Positions 916-43,649 of a DNA stretch of 64,000 bases are shown here, in pieces. The stretch is from contig CAMAQM010000006.1 of NCBI GenBank assembly GCA_945860545.1, forward strand, positions 1 through 64,000, given 5' to 3'. Position numbers and translations under genes: made by a program. The notes beneath the pieces were generated by a model. It was not told the DNA's origin. It did not search any database and worked only from the letters and a program-made list of their open reading frames with translations. This DNA comes from Bifidobacterium breve. GTDB taxonomy: Bacteria > Actinomycetota > Acidimicrobiia > Acidimicrobiales > Acidimicrobilacustridaceae. Positions within the stretch are counted from its first letter, which is position 1, and the number at the start of each line of letters is the position of its first letter.

Positions 916-934
916 ACCTGACGGCGTGTCAGAT
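916..934. promoter_or_regulatory. island operator, copy 1
   Basis: ACCTGACG-GCG-TGTCAGAT, matching WTCTGACGnnnCGTCAGAW with one mismatch in each half. It overlaps a possible -10 box TAACCT (914-919) and the GTG start at 926 of the rightward gene. A bound regulator would therefore cover both the promoter and the start of a leaderless message, while lying about 15 nt upstream of the leftward gene's -10. Confidence 0.65.
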
Positions 935-1423
935 TTGAGCGGTGACACCACCGCATCGGCAGGGGCGGCCCAACCCGCCATCGACGGCTGGTTCACCCTT
1001 GGAGGACCGGACCTCGGCGACGGCCCCCGACTGATCGGATCGAAGTGTGCGGGCTGTGGCACCTACGCCTTCCCGCCCCGCAGCGGCGCCTGCCCGAACC
1101 CGTCGTGTGTGTCCGACACGCTCGAACCAGTCGAGTTGTCGGCCACGGGAACACTGTGGAGTTTCGCCGAGAACCACTACGCCCCGCCGGCGCCTTACGT
1201 GGCCGCCGAACCGTTCGAGCCGTACGCCCTCGCCGCCGTCGAACTCGAACGTGAGGGCATGGTGGTGCTCGGCCAGGCAGCGAAAGGTGTGCGGGTTGCG
1301 GACCTGCGGGTCGGCATGCCGATGAAGCTCGCCATCGACGTCCTGTTCACCGGTGACGACGGGGTCGACCGGCTGATCTGGGTGTGGGAACCCGTCGAAG
1401 AGGAGGGCACCGATGTCGGCTGA
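926..1423 (+). CDS. zinc-ribbon OB-fold (DUF35) acyl-CoA-binding protein
   Basis: 165 aa. DUF35 proteins pair with thiolase-fold enzymes and help them bind CoA substrates; in mycobacteria the DUF35 domain of ChsH2 is needed by the steroid retro-aldolase Ltp2. The zinc ribbon is intact: C41-x2-C44-x11-C56-x4-C61, followed by the OB-fold beta-barrel (TGTLWSFAENH onward). The GTG at 926 is chosen because TAACCT lies 6 nt upstream and the protein aligns from there. The end overlaps the thiolase-like gene by 11 bases, so the two are probably translated together and act as one complex. The specific aldolase role is inferred. Confidence 0.85.
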   Translation: MSDLSGDTTASAGAAQPAIDGWFTLGGPDLGDGPRLIGSKCAGCGTYAFPPRSGACPNPSCVSDTLEPVELSATGTLWSFAENHYAPPAPYVAAEPFEPYALAAVELEREGMVVLGQAAKGVRVADLRVGMPMKLAIDVLFTGDDGVDRLIWVWEPVEEEGTDVG

Positions 1424-2612
1424 CGATGTCGCCATTCTCGGCGTCGGCATGCACCCATGGGGCAAGTGGGGTCGGGACTTCACCGAGTACGGCATGGTCG
1501 CCGCCCGGGCCGCGCTCGACGACGCCGGCCTGGCGTGGACCGACATTGAGCACGTCGCCGGCGCCGAGACGATCCGCAACGGCTACCCCGGGTTCGTGTC
1601 CGGATCGACGTTCGCCCAGAAGCTCGGCTGGACCGGGGTGACGGTCTCGTCGAGTTACGCCGCCTGTGCGTCGGGTGCCCAGGCGCTCCAGGCGGCGCGG
1701 GCCAACATCCTCGCCGGGTTCTGCGACGTGGCACTCGTGATCGGTGCCGACACCACCCCCAAAGGGTTCTTCGCTCCTGTCGGGGGGGAACGACGTGACG
1801 ACCCCGACTGGTTGCGGTTCCACCTGCTCGGCGCCACCAACCCCGTGTACTTCGCGTTGGCGGCGCGTCGCCGCATGGACCTGTGGGGCGCCACGGCTGA
1901 GGACTTCGCCATGGTGAAGGTGAAAAACGCCCGGCACGGCCTCGGGAACCCCAACGCCCGATACCGCAAGGAAGTCGGTATCGAGGAAGTGGTGTCGAGC
2001 CCCATCGTGTCGGACCCGTTGCGTCTGCTCGACATCTGCGCCACGTCCGACGGAGCGGCCGCGCTCGTGGTGACCAGCGCCGATTTCGCCCGCAAACATC
2101 TCGGTTCACTCGACGGAGTGGCTCGGGTGCGAGCCGTCAGCACCGCCACACCCACCTACCCACAGACGTTCCTCGAACTGCCCGACTTCGCCACCGATTC
2201 ACACGCTGTCGTGTCGCCGCCGGCGCTCGGGTTCAAGGCGTCTGTGGTGCACCGCGCCTATGAGGAGGCGGGGGTGGGTCCCGACGACATCGACCTCGCC
2301 GAGGTGTACGACCTGTCGACCGCCATGGAACTCGACTGGTACGAACACCTCGGGTTGTGCGAGGTGGGTGGTGCCGAAGAACTGCTGCGCTCGGGGGCGA
2401 CCACGATCGGTGGTCGGGTGCCGGTCAACGCGTCGGGTGGTCTCGCCAGTTTCGGGGAGGCGATTCCCGCCCAGGCCATCGCCCAGGTGTGCGAACTGAC
2501 CTGGCAGGTGCGTGGCCAGGCCACCGGCCGTCAGGTGGAGGGGGCCCGAGTGGGGGTCACCGCCAACCAGGGACTGTTCGGTCACGGCTCGTCGGTCGTG
2601 GTCGGCATCTGA
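1413..2612 (+). CDS. thiolase-fold protein, Ltp2-like candidate retro-aldolase
   Basis: 399 aa, SCP-x/lipid-transfer-protein branch of the thiolase superfamily. The nucleophile region SYAACASGAQ keeps Cys85. The C-terminal segment that normally reads GGxxxxGHPxGASG instead reads NASGGLASFGEAIPA (about residues 338-352), so the catalytic His of a true thiolase is missing. Ltp2-type aldolases of steroid side-chain degradation also do not use thiolase chemistry and need a DUF35 partner, which here is the overlapping upstream gene. I infer carbon-carbon cleavage of a C17-hydroxylated three-carbon side-chain CoA ester; a degenerate thiolase with another role is possible. Confidence 0.75.
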   Translation: MSADDVAILGVGMHPWGKWGRDFTEYGMVAARAALDDAGLAWTDIEHVAGAETIRNGYPGFVSGSTFAQKLGWTGVTVSSSYAACASGAQALQAARANILAGFCDVALVIGADTTPKGFFAPVGGERRDDPDWLRFHLLGATNPVYFALAARRRMDLWGATAEDFAMVKVKNARHGLGNPNARYRKEVGIEEVVSSPIVSDPLRLLDICATSDGAAALVVTSADFARKHLGSLDGVARVRAVSTATPTYPQTFLELPDFATDSHAVVSPPALGFKASVVHRAYEEAGVGPDDIDLAEVYDLSTAMELDWYEHLGLCEVGGAEELLRSGATTIGGRVPVNASGGLASFGEAIPAQAIAQVCELTWQVRGQATGRQVEGARVGVTANQGLFGHGSSVVVGI

Positions 2613-2643: not shown

Positions 2644-3807
2644 ATGACCTCCTCCGCCGTGTCGTCCGCCTGGATCGTCGACGCCGTGCGCACCCCGGTG
2701 GGTCGCCGAGGGGGCGGCCTGTCGGACATGCATCCCGCCGACCTCGGGGCGGCGAGCATTTCCGCTCTCATGGATCGAACCGGAGTGGACCCCGCCGCCG
2801 TCGACGACGTCGTATTCGGCAACGTGGATTCCATCGGCGCTCAGGCGGGGTGCATTGCCCGCACCTGCTGGCTGGTGGCCGGGATGCCCGAACACGTGCC
2901 GGGAACCACGGTGGACCGCCAGTGCGGGTCGGGTCAGCAGGCCGTGCACTTCGCCGCCCAAGCGGTGATGAGCGGCACCATGGACCTGGTGGTGGCCGGC
3001 GGTGTGCAGCAGATGTCGGCGATCCCCATCTCGGCGGCGATGCTCGCCGGGCAGGCCTACGGGTTCGACGACCCGTTCACCGGGTCACCGGGGTGGGTGG
3101 CCCGTTACGGGCCGGGCGCCGTCGACCAGTTCCTCGGGGCGGAATCCATGGCCACCCGATGGGACATCAGTCGTGACGACATGGAGGCCTTCGCCGTCGC
3201 ATCCCACGAGCGGGCACTGGCCGCCCGCGCCGAGGGACGGTTCGAGGCCGAGATCGTCGCCACGAACGGTCTCGACCACGACGAGGGACCCCGCCAGCCC
3301 GACTGGGACAAGATTCGTTCGTTGCGCACCCTCGTCGAAGACGGTCGCATGACCGCGGCGGTGGCCAGCCAGATCTCCGACGCCTCCGCCGCACTGCTCA
3401 TTGCCAACGACGCCGCTGTCGCGACCCACAACCTCACGCCGCGGGCCCGAATCCATCACCTCAGCGTCATGGCCGACGACCCGGTCATGATGCTGTCGGC
3501 GCCCATTCCCGCCACCAAACGGGCGCTCGAGCGCACCGGGCTCACCCCCGACGACATCGACCTCGTGGAAATCAACGAGGCGTTCGCCCCGGTGGTGCTG
3601 GCATGGCTGAAAGAAACCGGGTTCGATCCGGGCAAGGTGAACGTGAACGGTGGTGCGATCGCGCTGGGTCACCCACTCGGTGCCACCGGTGCCCGGCTCA
3701 TGACGACGCTGCTCCACGAACTCGACCGGACCGGCGGCCGCTATGGCCTGCAGACCATGTGTGAAGGTGGCGGTCAGGCCAACGTGACCATCATCGAACG
3801 GGTCTGA
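2644..3807 (+). CDS. acetyl-CoA acyltransferase (thiolase)
   Basis: 387 aa with all thiolase landmarks: nucleophile Cys94 in RQCGSGQQA, NEAFAPV, GHPLGATG (His about 343) and the second catalytic Cys in CEGGGQAN (about 373). It should release acetyl- or propionyl-CoA from a 3-oxoacyl-CoA, the last step of a beta-oxidation round. The ATG at 2644 is chosen over an upstream in-frame start because AAAGGAA precedes it and the conserved AWIVDAVRTPVG begins right after. It lies 31 bases behind the Ltp2-like gene, in the same apparent operon. Its end is 4 bases from the convergent sulfatase. A FadA6- or FadA5-like steroid role is inferred from context. Confidence 0.9.
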   Translation: MTSSAVSSAWIVDAVRTPVGRRGGGLSDMHPADLGAASISALMDRTGVDPAAVDDVVFGNVDSIGAQAGCIARTCWLVAGMPEHVPGTTVDRQCGSGQQAVHFAAQAVMSGTMDLVVAGGVQQMSAIPISAAMLAGQAYGFDDPFTGSPGWVARYGPGAVDQFLGAESMATRWDISRDDMEAFAVASHERALAARAEGRFEAEIVATNGLDHDEGPRQPDWDKIRSLRTLVEDGRMTAAVASQISDASAALLIANDAAVATHNLTPRARIHHLSVMADDPVMMLSAPIPATKRALERTGLTPDDIDLVEINEAFAPVVLAWLKETGFDPGKVNVNGGAIALGHPLGATGARLMTTLLHELDRTGGRYGLQTMCEGGGQANVTIIERV

Positions 3808-3810
3808 CCA

Positions 3811-6102
3811 CTACTCGTAGGAGCGCCCGATCTGGCGGGTGAGGTCGAGGAACGACTCGGGGTGGTCGGGTGCTGGTGCCCCCGGGGTGTAGCGCACCCG
3901 ATGCAACGTCCCGGTGAACGGGTACGAACCGTGTGTTTCGTGAAGGTCCCAGTGCACCGGTGAACGCGGGTCGCGCCCGACCGAGATGCCCTCGAACGGG
4001 GCGAGCGGGAACAGCATCGGCAGGTCGTCGAGGCGGGAGCGTTCCTCGTCGTCGACGAACACCGCAAGGTTCGTGCGCCACCCCCCAGGAGCCTCGATGC
4101 GCAACCGGACCGACACCGCACCGTCGGGCAGGGCGCCACCGTCCAATTCGTGGAGGTGGCCCTGGCCGTCGTTAAACGCCACCCGCAGGCTGTTGTCGGC
4201 CACCCACACCACGTACCCGCCGCCCTGGTCCCCGTGGGCGACGAGTACCCCCTCGTCACCGACGCGGAGGTCGATGTCGACGTCGACGTCGCAGGTGCGT
4301 TGCCAGATGAGGCGGGAACTGCGCCAGTGGTCGAGGCTCGGGGTGCCAGGGAACAACACGACGGGCTGTTCGTGCACCTTGTCCTCGGGCCGTCGGACGA
4401 TCCAGCGCCACTGGCTGCCCTCATCGAGGGGGTAGACGTCCCCGCTGCGAGCGAGCTGATCCCAGCGCGCGGCGAGCGCACTGACCCGCTCAGGCGATTC
4501 AGCGGCGAGGTCGTGCGTCTCGGTGGGGTCGACGGCGAGGTGGTAGAGCTCCCATTCGCCGTCGTGGAACGGGCCCGGTCCGCCCCGCCGGGTCACGACC
4601 TCCCAGCCGTCGCGGTACAGACCCCGATGACCGGCGAGTTCGTAGAGCTGTTCTGTGCGGACCTCGGGATGGGAGGGGTCGGCGAGGACGTCGACGAGCG
4701 GGACCCCGTCAGGGCTGCGAAGCGGGCGACCGTTGCGCTCGCGTGGCTGGGTGACCCCGACGAGTTGGGCAATGGTGGGCCACAGGTCGCTGCAGTGGGC
4801 GTACTGGTGGCGCAACCCCGTCACGACCTCCCGGTCACCGCGCACGTCGTCGCCGACGTGGACGATGCAGGGGACCTGATGGCCGCCGGCGTGGGTGTTG
4901 CGCTTGTAGAGCCGGAACGGGGTGTTGGACGCCATGGCCCAGCCCCGGGGGTAGTGGCTCATGGTCCGTGGGCCACCGATGAGGTCGATGCGGGCAAGGT
5001 CGTCGGCAAGATCGGCACCCTCGGCCCCGACCTGGGTGGCGAGATGGTTGTAGTAGTTGGTGGTGCCGGTGGCCTCACCTTCACGGCTGGCACCGTTGTC
5101 GGACATGAACACCACCACGGTGTTGTCCCACTCGCCGAGTTCCTCGAGCGCGGCGCGTACCTCTCCCACGCTGCGGTCGAGATGGGTGACCATGGCGGCG
5201 TAGGTCGCCATGTAGGTGGCGAACAGTCGGCGGGTGTCGTCGTCGAGGTCGTCCCAGGCCGCAACCTCGTCACCGGGTTCGGCGTTGCGTGGCGGCAGGG
5301 TGGCATCGGCGGACACGACGCCGAGTTCGACCTGGCGGGCGTGGCGGCGGGCCCGGATCTCGTCCCATCCACAGTCGTACACCGTGGCGAATTGCGCCAC
5401 GTCCTCGGCGCGGGCGTGCAGCGGTGCGTGGGCGGCGGGGTGGGCGAGGTACAACAGGAACGGCTGGTCGGGACGTACCGCTTTGCGTTGACGGACCATG
5501 GCGATGGCGGTTGCGGTCAGGTCGTCGGTGAGGTGGTAGCCCTCGGGGTACGTGTCGATGTCGAGGTGGGTGTTGTCGGCGACCAACTGGTGGGGGTGGT
5601 GCAGGTTGGTGAACGCGTCGAGGATCCCGTAGAAGCGTTCGAACCCCCGTTGGCACGGCCACGAGTGCATCGGTCCGGCCGCCGACGTGTCGGCGTCACG
5701 GCACAGGTGCCACTTGCCGACACACAACGTCGCCCACCCGGCGTCCCTGAGCGCCTCGGCCATGGTCACCACGTCGTCAGCGAGTTCGGCACGGTACCCG
5801 GGGAACCCGGGGTCGTCCTGGGCGACGTGGCCCACCCCGGCCCGGTGGGGGAGGAGTCCGGTGAGCAGGGCGGCACGCGTGGGCGAACACATCGGGGTCG
5901 AGTGGAAGTTGGTGAACTGCACCCCTTCGGCGGCCAACCGATCGAGGTTCGGGGTGGGGATCTCCGACCCCTGACACCCGAGGTCGGCGTACCCGACGTC
6001 GTCGACGAGGATCACCACGACGTTTGGGGCGCCCTCCGGGGCGGTGGGCCGTTGCGGCCACTGCGGATCCGAGGCCGCCATGGTGGTTCCGATGTGTTGC
6101 AT
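3811..6102 (-). CDS. type I sulfatase (arylsulfatase family)
   Basis: 763 aa. Hydrolyses sulfate esters using a formylglycine made from the Cys of C-x-P-x-R; here C72-S-P-T-R76 followed by ALLTG. Metal-binding Asp34-Asp35 sit in VDDVGYADLG, and MSDNGASREG supplies the Asp-Asn pair. I see no signal peptide (it starts MQHIGTTMAASDPQW), so it is probably cytoplasmic and works on imported sulfate esters. GAGGGGGTGAA before the ATG supports the start. It faces the thiolase gene and is divergent from the amidohydrolase, sharing the operator at 6189-6207. In a steroid island a steryl- or bile-acid-sulfate substrate is plausible but not shown. No formylglycine-generating enzyme gene is in the window. 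Confidence 0.92.
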   Translation of the reverse strand: MQHIGTTMAASDPQWPQRPTAPEGAPNVVVILVDDVGYADLGCQGSEIPTPNLDRLAAEGVQFTNFHSTPMCSPTRAALLTGLLPHRAGVGHVAQDDPGFPGYRAELADDVVTMAEALRDAGWATLCVGKWHLCRDADTSAAGPMHSWPCQRGFERFYGILDAFTNLHHPHQLVADNTHLDIDTYPEGYHLTDDLTATAIAMVRQRKAVRPDQPFLLYLAHPAAHAPLHARAEDVAQFATVYDCGWDEIRARRHARQVELGVVSADATLPPRNAEPGDEVAAWDDLDDDTRRLFATYMATYAAMVTHLDRSVGEVRAALEELGEWDNTVVVFMSDNGASREGEATGTTNYYNHLATQVGAEGADLADDLARIDLIGGPRTMSHYPRGWAMASNTPFRLYKRNTHAGGHQVPCIVHVGDDVRGDREVVTGLRHQYAHCSDLWPTIAQLVGVTQPRERNGRPLRSPDGVPLVDVLADPSHPEVRTEQLYELAGHRGLYRDGWEVVTRRGGPGPFHDGEWELYHLAVDPTETHDLAAESPERVSALAARWDQLARSGDVYPLDEGSQWRWIVRRPEDKVHEQPVVLFPGTPSLDHWRSSRLIWQRTCDVDVDIDLRVGDEGVLVAHGDQGGGYVVWVADNSLRVAFNDGQGHLHELDGGALPDGAVSVRLRIEAPGGWRTNLAVFVDDEERSRLDDLPMLFPLAPFEGISVGRDPRSPVHWDLHETHGSYPFTGTLHRVRYTPGAPAPDHPESFLDLTRQIGRSYE

Positions 6103-20888: not shown

Positions 20889-21383
20889 GTGACAGACGAG
20901 ACGGCTGACGGCCCGGGTTACGCGATTGCCGAGGACGGTTCGTTCACGGCACCGCTGACCCTGGCATACCCCTACGCCCGCACCGTGGGCCCGACCTACG
21001 GGACGTTCCTCACCGGCCTGGCCGCCGGCAAGGTCCACGCCACGGTTTCCGCGGACGGCACCGTGTTCGTCCCACCCGCCGAGTTCCACGCTTCCACTGG
21101 TGAGGCACTGACACAGTGGGTGGAGGTCGCCAGTGAAGGTGAGGTGGTGTCGTGGTCATGGGAGTCCGCCCCCGGTAACGCCCAACCGTTCGATCGCCCG
21201 TTCGCCTGGGTGCTGGTGTGTCTCGACGGTGCAGGCACCTCGATGCTGCACGCCCTCGACGTCACCGACCCCTCCGAGGTCCGCACCGGCATGCGGGTCC
21301 GGGTCCGCTGGGCGGCCGACGCCGAGCCGGGCATCGGGGCCATCACCTGTTTCGAACCGGTCACCACGGGAGGTGCGTCGTGA
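20889..21383 (+). CDS. OB-fold (DUF35) protein with lost zinc ribbon
   Basis: 164 aa. It aligns with the next gene over the ribbon and OB-fold, using VFVPP and VYFPP as anchors. The four zinc ligands of the neighbour (C44, C47, C59, C62) correspond here to Val53, Asp56, Ala68 and Gly71, so no zinc can be held in the usual way. The OB barrel remains (EVVSWSWESAPG, PFAWVLVCLDGAGTSMLHALD). It starts at the GTG at 20889, probably leaderless, and overlaps the next gene by GTGA. It is likely to form one assembly with the next three proteins. Mycobacterial Rv3521 may correspond to a fusion of these two small proteins; this needs alignment. Confidence 0.8.
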   Translation: MTDETADGPGYAIAEDGSFTAPLTLAYPYARTVGPTYGTFLTGLAAGKVHATVSADGTVFVPPAEFHASTGEALTQWVEVASEGEVVSWSWESAPGNAQPFDRPFAWVLVCLDGAGTSMLHALDVTDPSEVRTGMRVRVRWAADAEPGIGAITCFEPVTTGGAS

Positions 21384-21883
21384 GCAACGAAGCCGAAGAC
21401 GTCCTGCGTATCCGCACCCCCATCGGGGTGGATTACGCCTGGTCGGCGGGTCGGCGCTCGTCGGCGTACCTCAACGGTTTGCTCGAGGGTCGGCTCATCG
21501 GCAAGCGCTGTCCGTCGTGCACCCGGGTGTACTTCCCGCCTCGTAACGGCAACTGTCCGATGTGTGGAGTGTTGTTGGTCGACGACGACGTCGAGGTCGG
21601 ACCGAACGGCACGGTCACGACCTTCTGTGTCGTCAACGTGCCGTTCCTCGGACAGAAGATCACCCCGCCCTACGTCGCCGCCACCATCCTTCTCGACGGT
21701 GCCGACATCGGGATGCAGCACCTGCTCCAAGAGGTGGACGCCGCCGACGTCCGTATGGGGATGCGCGTCGAACCGGTGTGGGCGCCACGTGAGGACTGGG
21801 GACCGACTATGGAAAACATCACCCACTTCCGTCCGTCGGGCGAACCTGACGTGGATTTCACCGACTACGCGGGGCAGCTGTGA
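21380..21883 (+). CDS. zinc-ribbon OB-fold (DUF35) protein
   Basis: 167 aa with an intact ribbon C44-P-S-C47 and C59-P-M-C62, then the OB-fold (GTVTTFCVVNVPF, PPYVAATILLDGADIGMQHLL). DUF35 proteins present CoA esters to thiolase-fold partners. The GTG at 21380 overlaps the previous stop, and its own stop overlaps the ATG of the thiolase-fold gene at 21883. This arrangement of two OB-fold genes followed by two thiolase-fold genes is tightly coupled and resembles the Rv3521-ltp4-ltp3 order of M. tuberculosis. Confidence 0.85.
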   Translation: MSNEAEDVLRIRTPIGVDYAWSAGRRSSAYLNGLLEGRLIGKRCPSCTRVYFPPRNGNCPMCGVLLVDDDVEVGPNGTVTTFCVVNVPFLGQKITPPYVAATILLDGADIGMQHLLQEVDAADVRMGMRVEPVWAPREDWGPTMENITHFRPSGEPDVDFTDYAGQL

Positions 21884-34873: not shown

Positions 34874-36073
34874 TCAGTCGAGTTCGGTACCGACGATTGA
34901 GACGAAACTCACCATCTCACCGGGGTAGCCACCGAGGTTGTGGGTGAGCGCCCGCGTCCGGCCGGCACCCACGGTGCTGATCGCTCGTTCGGCGGGGGCC
35001 TCGCCGCGCAACTGCAGCCACGCCTCGTACAACATGCGCAGACCTGACGCACCCACCGGGTGGCCGAAGGATTTCAGGCCACCATCGGGGTTGATTGGGA
35101 GGTCACCGTCACGGTCGAACCGCCCGTCGAGCAGGTCGCGCCACGCCGTGCCCCGCTCACTGAACCCGAGGTCCTCGGCGAGCACGAGTTCAGTGATGGT
35201 GAAACAGTCGTGCACCTCGGCCATGGCGAGCTGGGCCCCGGGGTTCGTGATGCCGGCCTGGCGGTAGGCGTCGGCGGCGGTGGCCGCCACCTCGGGGAAC
35301 GTCGTGTAGTCGTAGTCGGGATCGCCGAGTCCGCCACCGTTGCCGGCCACGAACGACAACGCCTTGACATACAGCGGCTTGTCGGTGAATCGGTGGGCGT
35401 CCTCGGCGCGGCACACGATCGCCGCTGCGGCACCGTCGGCCACCCCGGCGCAGTCGAACACGCCGAGGTCGCCGGCCACCACCGGGGCGTTGCACACCTG
35501 TTCGGCGGACACCTCGCGCCGGAACTGGGCCCGGGGGTTGCGGGCCCCGTTGGCGTGGTTCTTGGTCGCCACCCTGGCCATGGCGGCGCGCAACTCGGTG
35601 GGGTCGACGCCGTAGCGGCGGGCGTAGGCGGGAGCGACCATGGAGAACATGGCGGCCGCCGTGAGGGTGCGTGCCGTGCCGTCGTTGGGGGGCGGTACGG
35701 CGTTGAGGCCCTGGTAACCGGAGTCCTTCACCTTTTCCACACCGACGGCCATGGCGACGTCGTAGGCCCCGGCGGCCACGGCGTACACCGCCTGACGAAG
35801 CGCTTCTGACCCGGTGGCGCAGTAGTTCTCCACGCGGGTCACCGGCTTGTTGTGCAACTGCAGGGGCCGGGCGAGCGTGATGCCGCTCATGCCGCCCTGG
35901 GCGGTGCCTAGCCAGTAGGCGTCAATGTCGTTGGTGGTCAGTCCGGTGCCCGAAAGGCAGTCCACCACGGCGTCCACGGCGAGATCGTCGAGGCCTTTGT
36001 CCCAATGTTCGACGAAGGGTGTGCACCCCATGGCCACGATCGCCACCTGGTCACGAAGGGAGTGTGACGCCAT
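34874..36073 (-). CDS. SCP-x-type thiolase
   Basis: 399 aa. Complete catalytic set for this branch: nucleophile Cys85 in VENYCATGSEAL, and GHPVGASGLRM with the catalytic His. Also EVHDCFTITELVLAEDLG and the terminal GAGRTRALTHNLGG. It should cleave a 3-oxoacyl-CoA with CoA, giving propionyl- or acetyl-CoA. Its ATG lies two bases behind the stop of the fused OB-fold protein, whose C-terminal DUF35 domain probably serves as its partner. The internal GGAGG before the ATG supports coupled translation. This is the only lipid-transfer-type thiolase here with both Cys and His. Confidence 0.87.
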   Translation of the reverse strand: MASHSLRDQVAIVAMGCTPFVEHWDKGLDDLAVDAVVDCLSGTGLTTNDIDAYWLGTAQGGMSGITLARPLQLHNKPVTRVENYCATGSEALRQAVYAVAAGAYDVAMAVGVEKVKDSGYQGLNAVPPPNDGTARTLTAAAMFSMVAPAYARRYGVDPTELRAAMARVATKNHANGARNPRAQFRREVSAEQVCNAPVVAGDLGVFDCAGVADGAAAAIVCRAEDAHRFTDKPLYVKALSFVAGNGGGLGDPDYDYTTFPEVAATAADAYRQAGITNPGAQLAMAEVHDCFTITELVLAEDLGFSERGTAWRDLLDGRFDRDGDLPINPDGGLKSFGHPVGASGLRMLYEAWLQLRGEAPAERAISTVGAGRTRALTHNLGGYPGEMVSFVSIVGTELD

Positions 36074-36075
36074 CC

Positions 36076-37515
36076 TCAGGCCTCCTTGCCGTCGCCGGGG
36101 GGCGGTTGGCGCACGAGCCGCGCTTTCCAGAAGTAGTTGGGGATGCCGTCGGCGGCGTGCAGCCGTCGGAACGTCAACGCCACCCGCGACCCAATGGTCA
36201 CCTCGTCAGGGCCGAGGTCACACAACTCGACGGGGAAGCGACCACCACCGTCGAAGTCGACCACGGCGAAGATGATGGGAGGACTCGGCGAGTACGCCAC
36301 CCGGTCCACGGTGAACGTGGCCACCGTCCCCTCGGCGCTCGCCAGGCTCACCGGTTCCATCTCGTCGGTGCGGGTGCCGTCGGCGGACACCCGGGCCGGC
36401 GGCAGGTGCACGCTTCCCGATGTCGTGTCGCGCGACCCGCTGAAGGCGTACTTCCAGTTCGCCGCCCGCCACGCCGCAGGTGCGGACACCCGCTGGGGTT
36501 CGGGGCGCCGCGGGGGTTCGACGTCGAGCATGCCGCGCCACGACAGGTACCGCCCGTAGGCAACGGCGCCACCGGTGGCCAACTGGTCGGCGACGGTGGC
36601 GTCCACCCGGTGGTGACCCAGCGCCGCGGTGGTGCGCAACAAGACCACGTCGGCGCCGTCGCCGGCGTGTACGAGCGCCACCACGGTGCCGCCCGGGTCA
36701 CCCGCAGCGGCGAGTCGCTCGAGTTCGTTGACCAGGCAGAGCAACGGGTGGGCGGCGCCGGTGATGCCGACGGTGGCCGAGAGGTCATCGGCGGTGCGTT
36801 GCGCGCCAACCACCCGGGCCAACGCTGCGCCGATGCGGGCGCTGGGAGCGTCGACGACGGCAACCGCCACGTCCGCCGGCTCGATCCCCGCGGTCGTGAG
36901 CGCCCGGTTGAGGGCATCTGCCACCAACGGTCGCAGGGCAACCTCGGTGAACTTCTCATCCCAGGTGCGGCTCACCGCCTCCCCGGGGATTCGCCAACGG
37001 TCAAGAACCTCGCCGGTGGCGCTGGCGTGGGCCAGCACCTCGGCCACCACCACATCGTGCCCGCCGTCGCTTCCGATCACGACACACGCACCGGCGTCAC
37101 CACCGCCGGACTCCTCGGCGGACCCGGCCCGGCCGGTTCGCAGATCCGCAGCGGTCAGCGCCACCGTGTCGGTGGTGCTCGCCGCCATGAGGAACCCGCC
37201 GACCACCGAGCGGACGCTGGCCCCGAGATCCATGGCCGCCACACCGGCGGGCAGGCCGAGGGCGGCGTGGACCACCGAGGCGTTGGTGTGGTCCATCACC
37301 GGGGGGGCCACCGTGCCGAACAACAGCATGTCGGGGACCAGGCCGCCGGCCAACGCCGACCGGGCGGCTTCGGTGGCGAGGGTGACGGCGTCCTGATCGA
37401 ACGAGGCCACGGTCCGTGTGCCACGTCCACCGCCCCCACCGGCCACCGGGGCGATGGTGCTGCGGTCGAGGCGCCAGTGGGGCATCGACGTTCCCCAGGA
37501 GATGATGCCGCGCAT
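36076..37515 (-). CDS. KAS III/HMG-CoA-synthase-like domain fused to OB-fold (DUF35)
   Basis: 479 aa. The N-terminal ~330 residues follow the thiolase/KAS III layout (ISWGTSMPHWRLDRSTIAP, VASFDQDAVTLATEAARSAL, DMLLFGTVAPPVMDHTNAS, GAAHPLLCLVNELERL). The nucleophile segment DLGASVRSVVGGFLMAA has no Cys. The last ~140 residues form a DUF35-like OB-fold without a zinc ribbon (GTVATFTVDRVAYSPSPPIIFAVVDFDGGG). The ATG at 37515 has TAGTGT 6 nt upstream, a leaderless arrangement, and operator copy 7 is 18 nt further up. It probably forms a complex with the thiolase at 34874. Confidence 0.8.
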   Translation of the reverse strand: MRGIISWGTSMPHWRLDRSTIAPVAGGGGGRGTRTVASFDQDAVTLATEAARSALAGGLVPDMLLFGTVAPPVMDHTNASVVHAALGLPAGVAAMDLGASVRSVVGGFLMAASTTDTVALTAADLRTGRAGSAEESGGGDAGACVVIGSDGGHDVVVAEVLAHASATGEVLDRWRIPGEAVSRTWDEKFTEVALRPLVADALNRALTTAGIEPADVAVAVVDAPSARIGAALARVVGAQRTADDLSATVGITGAAHPLLCLVNELERLAAAGDPGGTVVALVHAGDGADVVLLRTTAALGHHRVDATVADQLATGGAVAYGRYLSWRGMLDVEPPRRPEPQRVSAPAAWRAANWKYAFSGSRDTTSGSVHLPPARVSADGTRTDEMEPVSLASAEGTVATFTVDRVAYSPSPPIIFAVVDFDGGGRFPVELCDLGPDEVTIGSRVALTFRRLHAADGIPNYFWKARLVRQPPPGDGKEA

Positions 37516-39642: not shown

Positions 39643-40110
39643 TCAGACCAACCACCGTGACAGTGCATCGACCACGCATACCGGGCGGTCGGTGGCGTCA
39701 CACTCCACGGTGATGCGCATCGTCGTCTGCAACCCTCCGGGCACCTCGTCGGCGGCGAGCAGTTCGACAGTGGCTCGCAGTCGGGAACCCACCGGTACCG
39801 CAGCGGGGAACCGCACCCGGTCCACGCCGTAGTTCACCCCGGCGGAAAACCCCCGCACCTCCACGACGCGTGGCAGGAACCAGTTGGTGAGCGACAAGGT
39901 GAGATATCCGTGGGCGATGGTGCCGCCGTAGGGGCCGCCGGCGGCCCGGTCGGGATCGGTGTGGATCCACTGGTGGTCGCCGGTGGCGTCGGCGAACAGG
40001 TCGACCCGGGCCTGATCCACCTCGAGCCAGTCGCTGACTCCCAGAGTCGACCCCACCGCGGCCACCAAGGCGTCGGGTCCGTCGATCACGACCGGTTCCG
40101 GTGCGCTCAC
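39643..40110 (-). CDS. MaoC-like (R)-enoyl-CoA hydratase
   Basis: 155 aa hot-dog fold. The hydratase-2 pattern is clear: FADATGDHQWIHTDPDRAAGGPYGGTIAHGYLTLSL, with Asp and His of the D-x4-H active site and the GxxAHGxL helix. It adds water to a 2-enoyl-CoA. The GTG at 40110 overlaps the ipdC stop (GTGA), so it is part of the coupled ring-degradation operon; the longer upstream frame is a shadow. It may hydrate an unsaturated intermediate after ring C opening. MaoC genes are not always part of the ipd operon in mycobacteria, so this is a local feature. Confidence 0.85.
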   Translation of the reverse strand: MSAPEPVVIDGPDALVAAVGSTLGVSDWLEVDQARVDLFADATGDHQWIHTDPDRAAGGPYGGTIAHGYLTLSLTNWFLPRVVEVRGFSAGVNYGVDRVRFPAAVPVGSRLRATVELLAADEVPGGLQTTMRITVECDATDRPVCVVDALSRWLV

Positions 40111-41222
40111 GACTCGTCTCCCTTCGTGCGAACGGCGCCCAGTGCATCGAGCACGGCGCCCGCCTCGTCCACGATTCGTTCGACGAGTTCCCCACAACTC
40201 GGGAGGTCGTCGATCACCCCGACCACCTGCCCGCTGGCCATGACCCCCGACGCGGTCTTGCCATCGACCAACGAGGCCTTGAGCAGCATCGGGGTGTTGG
40301 CCGCCATGAGCATCTGGGTCCACGTCAGATCCATCGACGCCCGCATGGCCCGGCCCTCACGGATCATCTGGCGTAGCGACAGGCCGGTCATGGAACGGAA
40401 CCGCAGGGCGTTGATCACCGCCCGGGGCAGCGCCAGGAGTCGGCCCCGTCCACTTTCGAGCGTGTCGACGAGGTCGGTGCGCAACACCCGGTGGGGGACG
40501 CCGTCGACCTGGGTGGTGACCACCGTCTCGGTGACGGACCGGGCCAGGTAGAACTGCTTGACGGTGTCGGGCACCGTCGAGTCCGAGGTGAGCAGGAAAC
40601 GGGTGCCCATGGCGATGCCATCCGCGCCCCACGCCAGCGCGGCGACGAGTCCACGACCGTCGAAGAAGCCGCCGGCGGCGATGACCGGCACCCGTCCGTC
40701 CACCACGTCGACCACCTGGGGCAACAACACCGTGGTCGGCACGCTGCCGGTGTGCCCGCCGCCCTCGCCGCCCTGGACCAGCACCGCGTCGACACCCCAG
40801 TCGAGCACCTTCTCGGCGTGGCGTCGCGCCCCAACCGACGGGATCACCACCACACCGGCATCCTTGAGTCGGCTGATGAGGTGGGGTTTGGGAGCCTGGG
40901 CGAAACTCGCCACCCGGACGCCTTCGTTGATGATGAGGTCCAACCGGGCGTCAATGTCGGACGAGTCGGCCCGCAGGTTCACCCCGAAAGGCCGGGTGGT
41001 GCGCGACTTCACGGCAGCGATCGCCGTCGTCAACTCGTCGAGGTCCATGGTGGCACTCGCCAGAATGCCGAGCGCTCCGGCTTCGGCGGTGGCCGACACC
41101 AGTCGGGCACCGGCCACCCAGCCCATGCCGGTCTGCACCACCGGGACCTCGACCCCCACGAGGTCACACAACGAGGTGTGCAACCTCGGGTGCAGCCCGG
41201 GGTGGCGCGACGGACTCATCAC
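40107..41222 (-). CDS. ipdC: IpdC-like flavin-dependent C/D-ring enzyme (nitronate-monooxygenase fold)
   Basis: 371 aa FMN TIM barrel of the 2-nitropropane-dioxygenase class: VEVPVVQTGMGWVAGARLVSA, GVNLRADSSD, VVIPSVGARRHAEKVLDWGVDAV, VQGGEGGGHTG and IAAGGFFDGRGLVAALAWGADGIAMGTRF. In M. tuberculosis IpdC (Rv3553) follows ipdA and ipdB and acts on the hydroxylated/oxo C/D-ring CoA before EchA20 opens ring D. Same order here, with the ATG at 41222 overlapping the ipdB stop (ATGA). Confidence comes from synteny plus family. Confidence 0.85.
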   Translation of the reverse strand: MMSPSRHPGLHPRLHTSLCDLVGVEVPVVQTGMGWVAGARLVSATAEAGALGILASATMDLDELTTAIAAVKSRTTRPFGVNLRADSSDIDARLDLIINEGVRVASFAQAPKPHLISRLKDAGVVVIPSVGARRHAEKVLDWGVDAVLVQGGEGGGHTGSVPTTVLLPQVVDVVDGRVPVIAAGGFFDGRGLVAALAWGADGIAMGTRFLLTSDSTVPDTVKQFYLARSVTETVVTTQVDGVPHRVLRTDLVDTLESGRGRLLALPRAVINALRFRSMTGLSLRQMIREGRAMRASMDLTWTQMLMAANTPMLLKASLVDGKTASGVMASGQVVGVIDDLPSCGELVERIVDEAGAVLDALGAVRTKGDES

Positions 41223-41998
41223 GACGCTTTCGGCAGTTCGCGGTGGCGCAGGCCACGCGGGTCGAGACGTTCGATGGCGGCGGCCTCCGCGGCGTCGGGG
41301 CCACGGGACACCGGGGTGTCCTCGGCCACCACCAACTCAAACCCGGTGTTGGCCACCACCTCGTCGACGCTCACCCCCGGGTGCACGCTCACGAGACGCA
41401 TCCGGTGGTCGGGGGTGTCGAAGTCGAGCACGGCGAGGTTGGTGATCACCCGGGCCAGTCGGTGGTTGGCACGGGCGTTGGGGTGGAGTCGGGCCGCCCG
41501 GTCGTACCCGATGCCGCTCACCATGTCGACGTCGGGGGTGAACACCCTGGTGCTGTGGCGGGGGATGAAGAAACTCGTGGCGTGGTTGATGGTGTTGCCC
41601 GGCCCGCCCCGAACCCCCAACAGCTGGGCCGACGGTCGTTCCCACGGGCCGATGTTGGCGATGTTGGAGTTGCCGTAGACGTCCATCTGCGACGCCCCCA
41701 TCATCACGTGGCGTCGGCCACCCCACAACAGGTCGAACACCGATCGGAACGGGATCCAGCCCTCAATGCCGGCGTCGTCGGTGGTGGCCACCGATGCCCC
41801 GACGGGCAGGTCACCGTCAACGAAGAACGCTTCGCCGTCGCTGACCAACAGGTCGGGGGAGAAGGTGGCCCGAGCCAGCCGGGCACCGAGCATCGGCATG
41901 ACTCCCATACCCGAGGCGAAGATCTCGCCGTCTCCCCGAAAAGCCTCGGCGCAGGCCACCGCCACCACGTCAGCGAGTTGCACGTCGTCACCGTTCAC
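41219..41998 (-). CDS. ipdB: IpdB, beta subunit of ring-C-opening hydrolase
   Basis: 259 aa, close to the 250 aa of mycobacterial IpdB. CoA-transferase family I fold, beta-like: MPMLGARLARATFSPDLLVSDGEAFFVD, FDLLWGGRRHVMMGASQMDVYGNSNIANIGPWE and PGNTINHATSFFIPRHSTRVF. IpdAB hydrolyses the cyclic 1,3-diketone of COCHEA-CoA, the last intact ring of the steroid nucleus; it does not transfer CoA. GTG start at 41998 overlaps the ipdA stop (GTGA), so subunits are made in step. Identification rests on fold, length and the echA20-ipdA-ipdB-ipdC order. Confidence 0.88.
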   Translation of the reverse strand: MNGDDVQLADVVAVACAEAFRGDGEIFASGMGVMPMLGARLARATFSPDLLVSDGEAFFVDGDLPVGASVATTDDAGIEGWIPFRSVFDLLWGGRRHVMMGASQMDVYGNSNIANIGPWERPSAQLLGVRGGPGNTINHATSFFIPRHSTRVFTPDVDMVSGIGYDRAARLHPNARANHRLARVITNLAVLDFDTPDHRMRLVSVHPGVSVDEVVANTGFELVVAEDTPVSRGPDAAEAAAIERLDPRGLRHRELPKAS

Positions 41999-42876
41999 GG
42001 CGCCGCCACCTCCTCACGCCACGCGGCCACAGCGGCCTGGTAGGCGGTTTCGTCGCCGCTGAGGAACCGCTCGGCGAACGCCGCCCACGTGTCTGGGTCC
42101 GCGGCGGCCTCCACGTAGGCCTTCTGGAACTTCTCGTCGCGCCCGTAGTCAGGTTCGCAGGTGGTGAAGTGGGCGCCTCCGGGCGCTTCGATCACGCCGT
42201 CGACCATGGACCGGTTGATCCGCAACGTCTGGAAGGGCCCTGCGGCCACCATCTCGGCGGTCGTCACCACCTGTTCGCACGACACGAACCGTCGACCTGG
42301 TTCGCACGCCGACAGGAACAAGTCGTCGAAGTACAGGTCGGGACCGAGGTACTGGGCGTTGCCGCGCTGGTCGGCCCGGTTCAGATGGACGAAGGCGGCG
42401 TCGAGACGGATGGCGGGAACGGCGAGCAACTCCTCGCCGTCCTCGTAGGGGGATTGCACGGTGCGCAGTCCCGGGTTCACGTCGGTGACGCCGCTGGCGA
42501 GACCTGACCGTGTCGGCAGGAACGGCAGTCGCAGCGACCCGGCGTACAGCGCCCACTGCAGCATGCCCTCGTCGTACTCGACCGGTTCGGCGATGGTGCC
42601 GTTTTGGCGTGCGGCCCGGAAGTGCGGTTCGAGAGGGATCGAGTCGAGGGACACGAACCCGTAGATGAGACGTTTCACCTTGCCCGCCGCGCACAACAGC
42701 CCGACGTCAGGCCCTCCGTAGGAGACCACGGTGAGGTCGGTTACGTCGGTGCGCAACAGGGCCCGAACCAGCGCCATCGGTTTGCGCCGGCTGCCCCAAC
42801 CGCCGATTCCCAACGTCATGCCGGAGTCGATGGTGGCGGCCGCCTCGTCGGCGGTGATCCGCTTGTCGGCGGTCAC
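41995..42876 (-). CDS. ipdA: IpdA, alpha subunit of ring-C-opening hydrolase
   Basis: 293 aa, the length of mycobacterial IpdA (292). CoA-transferase I alpha-like pattern: TIDSGMTLGIGGWGSRRKPMALVRALL, VVSYGGPDVGLLCAAGKVKRL, EPVEYDEGMLQWALYAGSLRLPFLP, and FVHLNRADQRGNAQYLGPDLYFDD. The YDEGM stretch (about 101-105) carries the Glu expected to be the catalytic base in this hydrolase. GTG start at 42876 overlaps the echA20 stop. With IpdB it forms the heterotetramer that opens ring C, feeding central metabolism with succinyl-, propionyl- and acetyl-CoA. Confidence 0.9.
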   Translation of the reverse strand: MTADKRITADEAAATIDSGMTLGIGGWGSRRKPMALVRALLRTDVTDLTVVSYGGPDVGLLCAAGKVKRLIYGFVSLDSIPLEPHFRAARQNGTIAEPVEYDEGMLQWALYAGSLRLPFLPTRSGLASGVTDVNPGLRTVQSPYEDGEELLAVPAIRLDAAFVHLNRADQRGNAQYLGPDLYFDDLFLSACEPGRRFVSCEQVVTTAEMVAAGPFQTLRINRSMVDGVIEAPGGAHFTTCEPDYGRDEKFQKAYVEAAADPDTWAAFAERFLSGDETAYQAAVAAWREEVAAP

Positions 42877-43649
42877 GTGTTGCTTCCCTCGGCGCCGCCT
42901 GCGGATTTGTCGGTGCCGGCGAACTCGTCACGGAGCTCGTCGCTGACCCCGCTCAGGTTCAGCTCGAAAGTGAACCCCTGCTCGAACCGGTAACTGCGTT
43001 TGGGGTCCCAGGGGTCGATGCCGTTGAGGCATTCCTTGGCGGCGCGGATCACCGTTGGGGACTTGTCGGCGATCTGTTCGGCGAGTCGCACCGCTGCGTC
43101 GCGCAACTCGTCGCGGGGGACGACGTCCCACACGCTGCCCCAGGCGTGCAGTTCGGCGGCGGTGGCGCGTGTGGCGGTGTACACCATGGCCCGCATCTTG
43201 TGTTGGGGGACGAGGCGGGCGAGGTGGGTGGCGGCGCCGAGTGCGCCGCGTTCAACCTCGGGGAGGGCGAACCAGGCGTCGTCTGAGGCGATCACGGCGT
43301 CGCTGTTGCCGACGAGGCCGATGCCGCCACCGACGCAGAATCCCGCCACGGCGCTGATGACGGGCACCGGGCAGTCGTACACGGCGGTGAACGCTGCCGC
43401 GCACCCACGGTTGGCGCCGAGCAGGGCGTCGAACCCGTCGGTGTGCTGCATCTCCTTGATGTCCACGCCGGCGTTGAACCCCTTGCCCTCGGCCCGCAGG
43501 ATGACGACCCGGGTCTGGGGGTTGGCCCCCGCTGCGGTGATGGCGTCGGCCAACCCGAACCACTCGTCAACGGTGAGTGCGTTCACCGGCGGGCAGTTCA
43601 TGACCACCTCGGTGATGCCGTGTGCGTTCTGGTGCGTTTCGATCCCCAC
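42873..43649 (-). CDS. echA20: EchA20, ring-D-opening crotonase hydrolase
   Basis: 258 aa crotonase: VMNCPPVNALTVDEW, GKGFNAGVDIKEMQHTDG, VISAVAGFCVGGGIGLVGNSD, and ALPEVERGALGAATHLARLVP. EchA20 of M. tuberculosis hydrolyses ring D of the HIEC-CoA intermediate, just before IpdAB. It is the first gene of the coupled operon echA20-ipdA-ipdB-ipdC-maoC, and it faces an SDR gene away at 43730 as Rv3550 faces Rv3549c. GTG start at 43649; a TAGGCT box (complement of 43659-43664) lies 9 nt upstream, with operator copy 8 just behind it. The long C-terminus (DPWDPKRSYRFEQGFTFELNLSGVSDELRDEFAG) is consistent with this group. Confidence 0.87.
   Translation of the reverse strand: MGIETHQNAHGITEVVMNCPPVNALTVDEWFGLADAITAAGANPQTRVVILRAEGKGFNAGVDIKEMQHTDGFDALLGANRGCAAAFTAVYDCPVPVISAVAGFCVGGGIGLVGNSDAVIASDDAWFALPEVERGALGAATHLARLVPQHKMRAMVYTATRATAAELHAWGSVWDVVPRDELRDAAVRLAEQIADKSPTVIRAAKECLNGIDPWDPKRSYRFEQGFTFELNLSGVSDELRDEFAGTDKSAGGAEGSNT

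Follow-up and report, generated by a model that had tools for sequence, protein, structure and literature searches.

A thiolase-like protein and its DUF35 partner in Acidimicrobiia probably form a carbon–carbon-cleaving enzyme of HIP catabolism

Introduction

Carbon–carbon lyases that combine a thiolase fold with a DUF35 partner include two solved aldolase systems, TcLtp2–ChsH2(DUF35) (6ok1) and CtSal–CtShy(DUF35) (9myr). As described in the available sections of PMC12329534, TcLtp2 catalysis involves Tyr294 of a YDHF motif together with Tyr344, and CtSal catalysis involves Tyr302 and Cys304 of a YDCY motif, with Gln352 at the place of Tyr344.

HIP is the bicyclic C/D-ring remnant of steroid degradation. 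In the accessible text of Crowe et al. (PMC5380842), the route from 5-OH-HIC-CoA to MOODA-CoA was rebuilt in vitro with only IpdF, IpdC, EchA20, IpdAB and FadA6; the fate past MOODA-CoA is described there as unclear, with 2-methyl-β-ketoadipyl-CoA as the proposed last intermediate. In Comamonas, the removal of the HIP side chain has been given to the thiolase ScdF (PMC13101464, in part).

The Mycobacterium tuberculosis protein Rv1627c appears in several surveys: two list it with a predicted requirement on cholesterol (PMC6429209, PMC8856561), one has it as raised in the phagosome (PMC6254974) and one as changed in a transcript table (PMC7771538). The accessible portions of the literature found by its locus name give no reaction for it. 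Here we analyse a gene pair of the same type in the window, by which we mean the whole 64,000-nt stretch of acidimicrobial DNA.

Results

A conserved gene pair of the PRK06059 family

Near its start the window carries a DUF35 gene and a thiolase-like gene in overlapping frames (Table 1). The thiolase-like protein matches Thiolase_N and Thiolase_C_1 of Pfam; its partner matches zf-ChsH2 (PF12172) and OB_ChsH2_C (PF01796), and the Pfam scan found no MaoC domain in it, in contrast to ChsH2, whose DUF35 domain is part of a MaoC fusion. The first-pass annotation had described a protein that keeps Cys85 and loses the thiolase histidine, its GHP loop replaced by FGEAIPA, and that overlaps by 11 bases an intact zinc-ribbon OB-fold gene standing alone; this description was accurate in each respect.

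Table 1. Positions of the gene pair, its sequence motifs and the HIP-pathway genes in the window
Feature	Positions	Strand	Remarks
Thiolase-like gene, PRK06059 family, Rv1627c-type	1413..2612	+	ATG start, 399 aa, open frame
DUF35 partner gene, Rv1628c-type, stand-alone zinc ribbon + OB-fold	926..1423	+	GTG start, 165 aa, open frame
Overlap of DUF35 and thiolase-like frames, 11 nt	1413..1423	+	Common to both ORFs
DUF35 zinc-ribbon cysteines C41, C44, C56, C61	1046..1108	+	CxxC-x11-CxxxxC
Cys85, thiolase nucleophile position	1665..1667	+	101/101 aligned members
Y299-D300-L301-S302, place of HDCF / YDHF / YDCY	2307..2318	+	Y and L in 100, D and S in 101 of 101
FGEAIPA loop, residues 347-353	2451..2471	+	Glu349 (2457-2459) at thiolase GHP His place
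FadA6 orthologue, ordinary thiolase (HIP pathway)	2644..3807	+	PRK07801, 654 bits
EchA20 orthologue (ring D hydrolase)	42873..43649	-	PRK07938, 412 bits; gene order in L126
IpdA orthologue	41995..42876	-	CoA_trans; gene order in L126, L127
IpdB orthologue	41219..41998	-	CoA_trans; gene order
IpdC orthologue (FabK-like)	40107..41222	-	TIGR03151, 233 bits, under its cut-off; gene order

The arrangement extends well past this locus. In 100 of 100 relatives (the 80 best and 20 further neighbourhoods) a DUF35 gene lies immediately upstream, within 100 nt and on the same strand. All four zinc-ribbon cysteines are kept in 97 of 101 DUF35 homologues, one of those outside this count being truncated (L069); in L106, L109 and L110 three or four of the cysteines are gone from the partner and the gene pair is retained. 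The conserved features of the pair are not due to chance: it belongs to a large conserved family and is not a local oddity. Genome contigs hold at least 588 related stretches, the best 80 of which are 77–81% identical and mostly mycobacterial, and the PRK06059 thiolase-like enzyme and its partner are very widespread.

The thiolase-like protein scores 739 bits against NCBIfam PRK06059 (NF004715), over the cut-off of 424, and 145 bits against PRK07855, under the cut-off of 469; we take PRK07855 as the Ltp2 model because a relative of TcLtp2 on contig C15 of the same genome reaches 690 bits. The best solved relatives are SCP2-thiolases (6hsj, 168 bits) and BbsB of the benzoylsuccinyl-CoA thiolase BbsAB (7pxp, 153 bits), with TcLtp2 at 97 bits and Sal at 86 bits; BbsA is a weak match of the window DUF35 protein. 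In a tree of thiolase-fold proteins, which contains long branches (tool warning), the window family, the divergent protein L123 and a Sphingopyxis protein form one clade sharing FGEA (support 99/99), and Ltp2, Sal and one PRK06158 protein form a separate clade (100/99). The thiolase-like protein is thus a member of PRK06059 and lies outside the Ltp2/Sal aldolase clade.

The Sphingopyxis protein is one of two matches from a plasmid search (42% identical); it groups with L123, and its neighbours are genes for a MaoC protein and an OB-fold protein, not annotated HIP genes. The other match is on a Nonomuraea plasmid whose record bears no annotation around it. An AlphaFold2 model built with 20 close homologues had a mean pLDDT of 44.9, too low for the model to be used.

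An unusual catalytic site

Cys85, Asp300, Ser302, Glu349 and Gln354 are invariant in all 101 aligned family members, and Tyr299 and Leu301 have one exception each; L123 has P and N at these two places. The SCP2-thiolase and BbsAB structures share the nucleophile cysteine and keep the GHP histidine and the HD of HDCF/HDAF, whereas the window protein lacks the histidine and the HDCF motif and has Glu349 and YDLS instead. In Ltp2 and Sal, by contrast, the place of Cys85 is taken by glycine.

The window protein resembles the two aldolases in its DUF35 partner and at the YDHF position: TcLtp2 Tyr294 aligns with Tyr299, with Leu replacing the oxyanion His296 of Ltp2. For the catalytic loop the alignments differ. 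L-INS-i aligns Glu349 with the thiolase GHP histidine, CtSal Gln352 and TcLtp2 Tyr344, and MAFFT auto places Ile351 opposite Tyr344 by matching the letters GEA that occur in both Ltp2 and the window protein; we prefer the former because at this point the window protein and Sal align ungapped on a common SFG. With either alignment the window protein has no tyrosine at the Tyr344 position, so that the comparison with Ltp2 proposed in the first-pass annotation finds one catalytic tyrosine (Tyr299) and in place of the other Glu349 or Ile351. CtSal shares the SFG and the position of the tyrosine base, but differs in having Gln352, YDCY and no equivalent of Cys85.

Judged from these alignments, the site is a hybrid, with the nucleophile of thiolases, the tyrosine of aldolases and a glutamate found in neither. 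The invariance of its residues suggests that the site is functional. A protein that binds lipids or has no catalytic role, in line with the family name "lipid-transfer protein", is consistent with the loss of the thiolase histidine and with the absence of an activity from the accessible literature on the locus, but the five invariant residues argue against it and we consider it very improbable.

The mycobacterial orthologue

Of four mycobacterial loci that were read, L016 and L052 have the full gene order polA, DUF35, LTP (the thiolase-like gene), pdtaR, and L015 and L033 have a partly different order. We take polA to be Rv1629. The order in L016 and L052 fits Rv1629-Rv1628c-Rv1627c-Rv1626 as named in the available parts of PMC1995591 and PMC8856561. 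By this synteny the window pair is orthologous to M. tuberculosis Rv1627c and its DUF35 partner Rv1628c, the Rv numbers being assigned from gene order and these papers and not from a sequence comparison with Rv1627c. We had also considered Ltp1 (Rv2790c) and Ltp3 (Rv3523) as the M. tuberculosis orthologue and set both aside, since the gene order in L016 and L052 leads to Rv1627c; Ltp3 is further excluded since the Ltp3/Ltp4-type proteins are other genes of the window. The mycobacterial and acidimicrobial versions are alike in family and gene pair and differ in setting: the former lies between polA and pdtaR, the latter in or near HIP operons.

Of 57 named mycobacterial loci, 55 carry a KstR-type motif (TNNAACNNGTTNNA, with one mismatch allowed) ahead of the pair, in a 250-nt stretch that takes in the DUF35 start and the sequence before it; the background is 3.9% of random stretches. 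One frequent form, TGCAACACGTTTCA, when reverse-complemented, equals part of the motif given in print for Rv1628c/Rv1629, for which Kendall 2007, in the part available, lists a motif of this type; our assignment is to the KstR type and does not extend to KstR2. In the window no such motif (at most one mismatch) lies upstream of position 926; the whole window holds 13 matches at that stringency against 5.6 expected.

Steroid genes of the window and its genome

FadA6 is the next gene after the thiolase-like gene (60–62% identical to the FadA6 proteins of M. simulans and M. uberis, and 39% identical to FadA5). The pair lies 40 kb from EchA20 and on the opposite strand. The window's steroid genes were named from the gene order in M. 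simulans (L126) and M. uberis (L127) and from a table in PMC5380842, which was available in part. The window also encodes a FadA5-type thiolase. Ltp4- and Ltp3-type genes, as we presume the corresponding profile models should be named, lie at 21–24 kb, preceded by DUF35 genes, and with these DUF35 genes they form a cluster of their own in the window and in L128 and L129. The DUF35-type genes stand there in tandem (20889-21383 and 21218-21883, plus strand), the first having no clear zinc ribbon; L128 has a similar doublet.

Elsewhere in the same genome, contig C15 encodes a true Ltp2 (610 bits to TcLtp2, 6ok1) that bears YDHF and GEAY, together with a ChsH2-like MaoC–DUF35 fusion, a ChsH1-like MaoC protein, two acyl-CoA dehydrogenases and P450s. 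KshA_C (PF19298) has no match in this genome, whose assembly is 89.6% complete and contains genes for side-chain and C/D-ring breakdown, and matches in only 16 of 296 genomes. Its absence here may reflect an assembly gap or a different ring-opening enzyme; we dropped it as a marker because of the completeness of this metagenome-assembled genome and because many genomes with other steroid genes lack a match.

Further thiolase-fold genes with DUF35 domains were seen. An HMG-CoA-synthase-like gene with a DUF35 OB-fold domain (36076-37515, minus strand; NF003274, 96 bits, under the cut-off) directly precedes a PRK06157 thiolase gene (34874-36073, minus strand), a pair that resembles the archaeal thiolase/HMG-CoA synthase/DUF35 complex; in L113 such genes come after the LTP–FadA6 pair. 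On contig C6, past the window, L097 (17498-19222, minus strand) encodes a 574-aa fusion of a DUF35 protein (zinc ribbon and OB-fold) with a PRK06158-type thiolase, the thiolase part of which falls with Ltp2 and Sal in the phylogeny. A gene for a 763-aa sulfatase (3811-6102, minus strand) neighbours the pair and other catabolic genes, and L044 too has a 55% relative close to its pair. The sulfatase might take sulfated steroids as substrate.

Linkage to HIP genes

Among 237 genomes of the class, the window-type protein occurs in 77, EchA20 in 73 and both in 69. In these 69 the two genes lie on the same contig in 50 cases and on different contigs in 19, with a gap of at most 10 kb in 42 and at most 5 kb in 35. 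Across 296 sampled genomes of Actinomycetota, the protein is over its cut-off in 25 and EchA20 in 26, with 25 shared. The Fisher p for co-occurrence is 3e-45, a value that ignores shared ancestry and is therefore no true probability. EchA20 occurs without the protein over cut-off in one genome of the phylum sample (G288) and four of the class sample (G384, G393, G446, G478), and the reverse, the protein with no EchA20, is seen in eight genomes of the class; some of the discordant genomes are incomplete, and G513 is given as 100% complete.

The gene order is more telling. From the 50 genomes with both genes on one contig we fetched 16 stretches, chosen for small gaps. In all 16 a single strand carries EchA20, DUF35 and LTP, and IpdA/B or IpdA/B/C accompany them in 13. 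The order is EchA20-DUF35-LTP-IpdA-IpdB-IpdC in five (L132, L133, L135, L136, L137), EchA20-IpdA-IpdB-IpdC-DUF35-LTP in seven and DUF35-LTP-EchA20 in two; in the remaining two it is EchA20-DUF35-LTP, and in one of these IpdA/B lie past another gene. L106 has the order EchA20-IpdA-IpdB-IpdC-DUF35-LTP with overlaps of 4–8 nt from IpdA to DUF35. In many Acidimicrobiia, then, the pair sits inside a HIP catabolism operon, a location reported here as new, and its operon partners are EchA20 and IpdA/B/C, not ChsE/ChsH.

Beyond the class, EchA20, Ipd or FadA6-type genes are near the pair in 12 of 20 phylum-wide neighbourhoods, and in the other eight, from families f31, f36 and f38, no HIP genes were found near it. 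Among the 80 best relatives we picked 24 named genomes, and in 22 EchA20 is over its cut-off; both misses (L020, L039) are metagenome-assembled. M. uberis, with a reduced genome that keeps the pair and an EchA20 match flagged with one TGA, was considered as a counter-case and rejected; its FadA6, IpdC/B/A, EchA20, FadA5, P450, ChsH1 and the start of Ltp2 show no stops in the matched stretches.

Co-occurrence by itself would fit other steroid functions equally well. In a control, the genomes with Ltp3 over its cut-off (26 of 296) were exactly those with EchA20, 25 of them shared with the window-type protein, so the profile does not single out HIP and we rely on linkage. The same 25 of 26, and the KstR-type motif in mycobacteria, would also fit another sterol side-chain enzyme, such as a thiolase of the first cycle or an Ltp3/Ltp4-like aldolase of the C24 branch. 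We regard such a role as unlikely, because the operon partners are HIP genes and the Ltp3/Ltp4-type genes already have their own DUF35 genes and cluster.

The first-pass annotation had read the protein as Ltp2-like and suggested that it completes side-chain removal, a retro-aldol cleavage of 17-hydroxy-pregnene-carboxyl-CoA to a 17-ketone and propionyl-CoA. Part of the likeness stands: the protein is of the thiolase superfamily, with a DUF35 gene adjacent, altered catalytic residues, the tyrosine of the YDHF motif kept and steroid genes around it. Family score, tree and Tyr344 position nevertheless place it outside Ltp2. In the phylum sample, 25 genomes have Ltp2 over cut-off and 22 of these also have the window-type protein, which leaves three of the 25 genomes with that protein and no Ltp2 over cut-off. 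Given these genomes, the true Ltp2 operon on C15 and the EchA20/IpdA/B/C partners of the pair, the 17-ketone role is highly unlikely.

Discussion

We suggest that the pair, the acidimicrobial Rv1628c–Rv1627c, is probably a DUF35-dependent, carbon–carbon-cleaving enzyme of the thiolase superfamily that works in HIP catabolism. The assignment to the HIP pathway, for which the operons argue, is the firmest part of this proposal and we hold it very likely; against the proposal as a whole stand the distance and opposite strand of EchA20 relative to the pair in the window, the lack of a KstR-type motif upstream of that pair, the neighbourhoods and genomes that depart from the pattern, and the loss of zinc cysteines in three homologues. 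The pair would cleave a carbon–carbon bond of a CoA thioester derived from HIP. By analogy with Ltp2 and Sal, the DUF35 protein would form part of the substrate pocket; Cys85 would be the nucleophile, and Tyr299 and Glu349 may supply the acid and base groups. Between cleavage based on Cys85 and a pure retro-aldol reaction we lean slightly to the former.

Since the route from 5-OH-HIC-CoA to MOODA-CoA was rebuilt without the pair, its step should lie outside that segment, which leaves either an earlier step, in which HIP loses its side chain, or a reaction after MOODA-CoA. In the earlier slot the enzyme would take the propionyl side chain off HIP-CoA, giving 5-OH-HIC-CoA and acetyl-CoA; in favour of this, the bulky bicyclic substrate would suit a pocket built with DUF35, and Cys85 is invariant. 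That step has a thiolase in Comamonas, however, namely ScdF, and the accessible text of PMC5380842 equates FadA6 with gene 1283 of C. testosteroni CNB-2, which would be ScdF. We therefore think the earlier slot rather unlikely and favour a step after MOODA-CoA, to which we give a little less than an even chance. SCP2-type thiolases often take α-methyl-branched substrates, a preference that would fit 2-methyl-β-ketoadipyl-CoA.

The catalytic layouts described for this fold are Tyr-Tyr in Ltp2, Tyr-Cys in Sal and Cys-His-Cys in thiolases. Tentatively, and with more doubt than confidence, we propose that Cys85-Tyr299-Glu349 is a third layout among the DUF35-partnered thiolase-fold lyases, used for post-MOODA-CoA cleavage in M. 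tuberculosis and Acidimicrobiia. The operons of Acidimicrobiia assign Rv1627c/Rv1628c a pathway, and a named open step of that pathway becomes directly testable; if the proposal is true, the Cys-Tyr-Glu site would be a third design among the DUF35-partnered carbon–carbon lyases of the thiolase fold.
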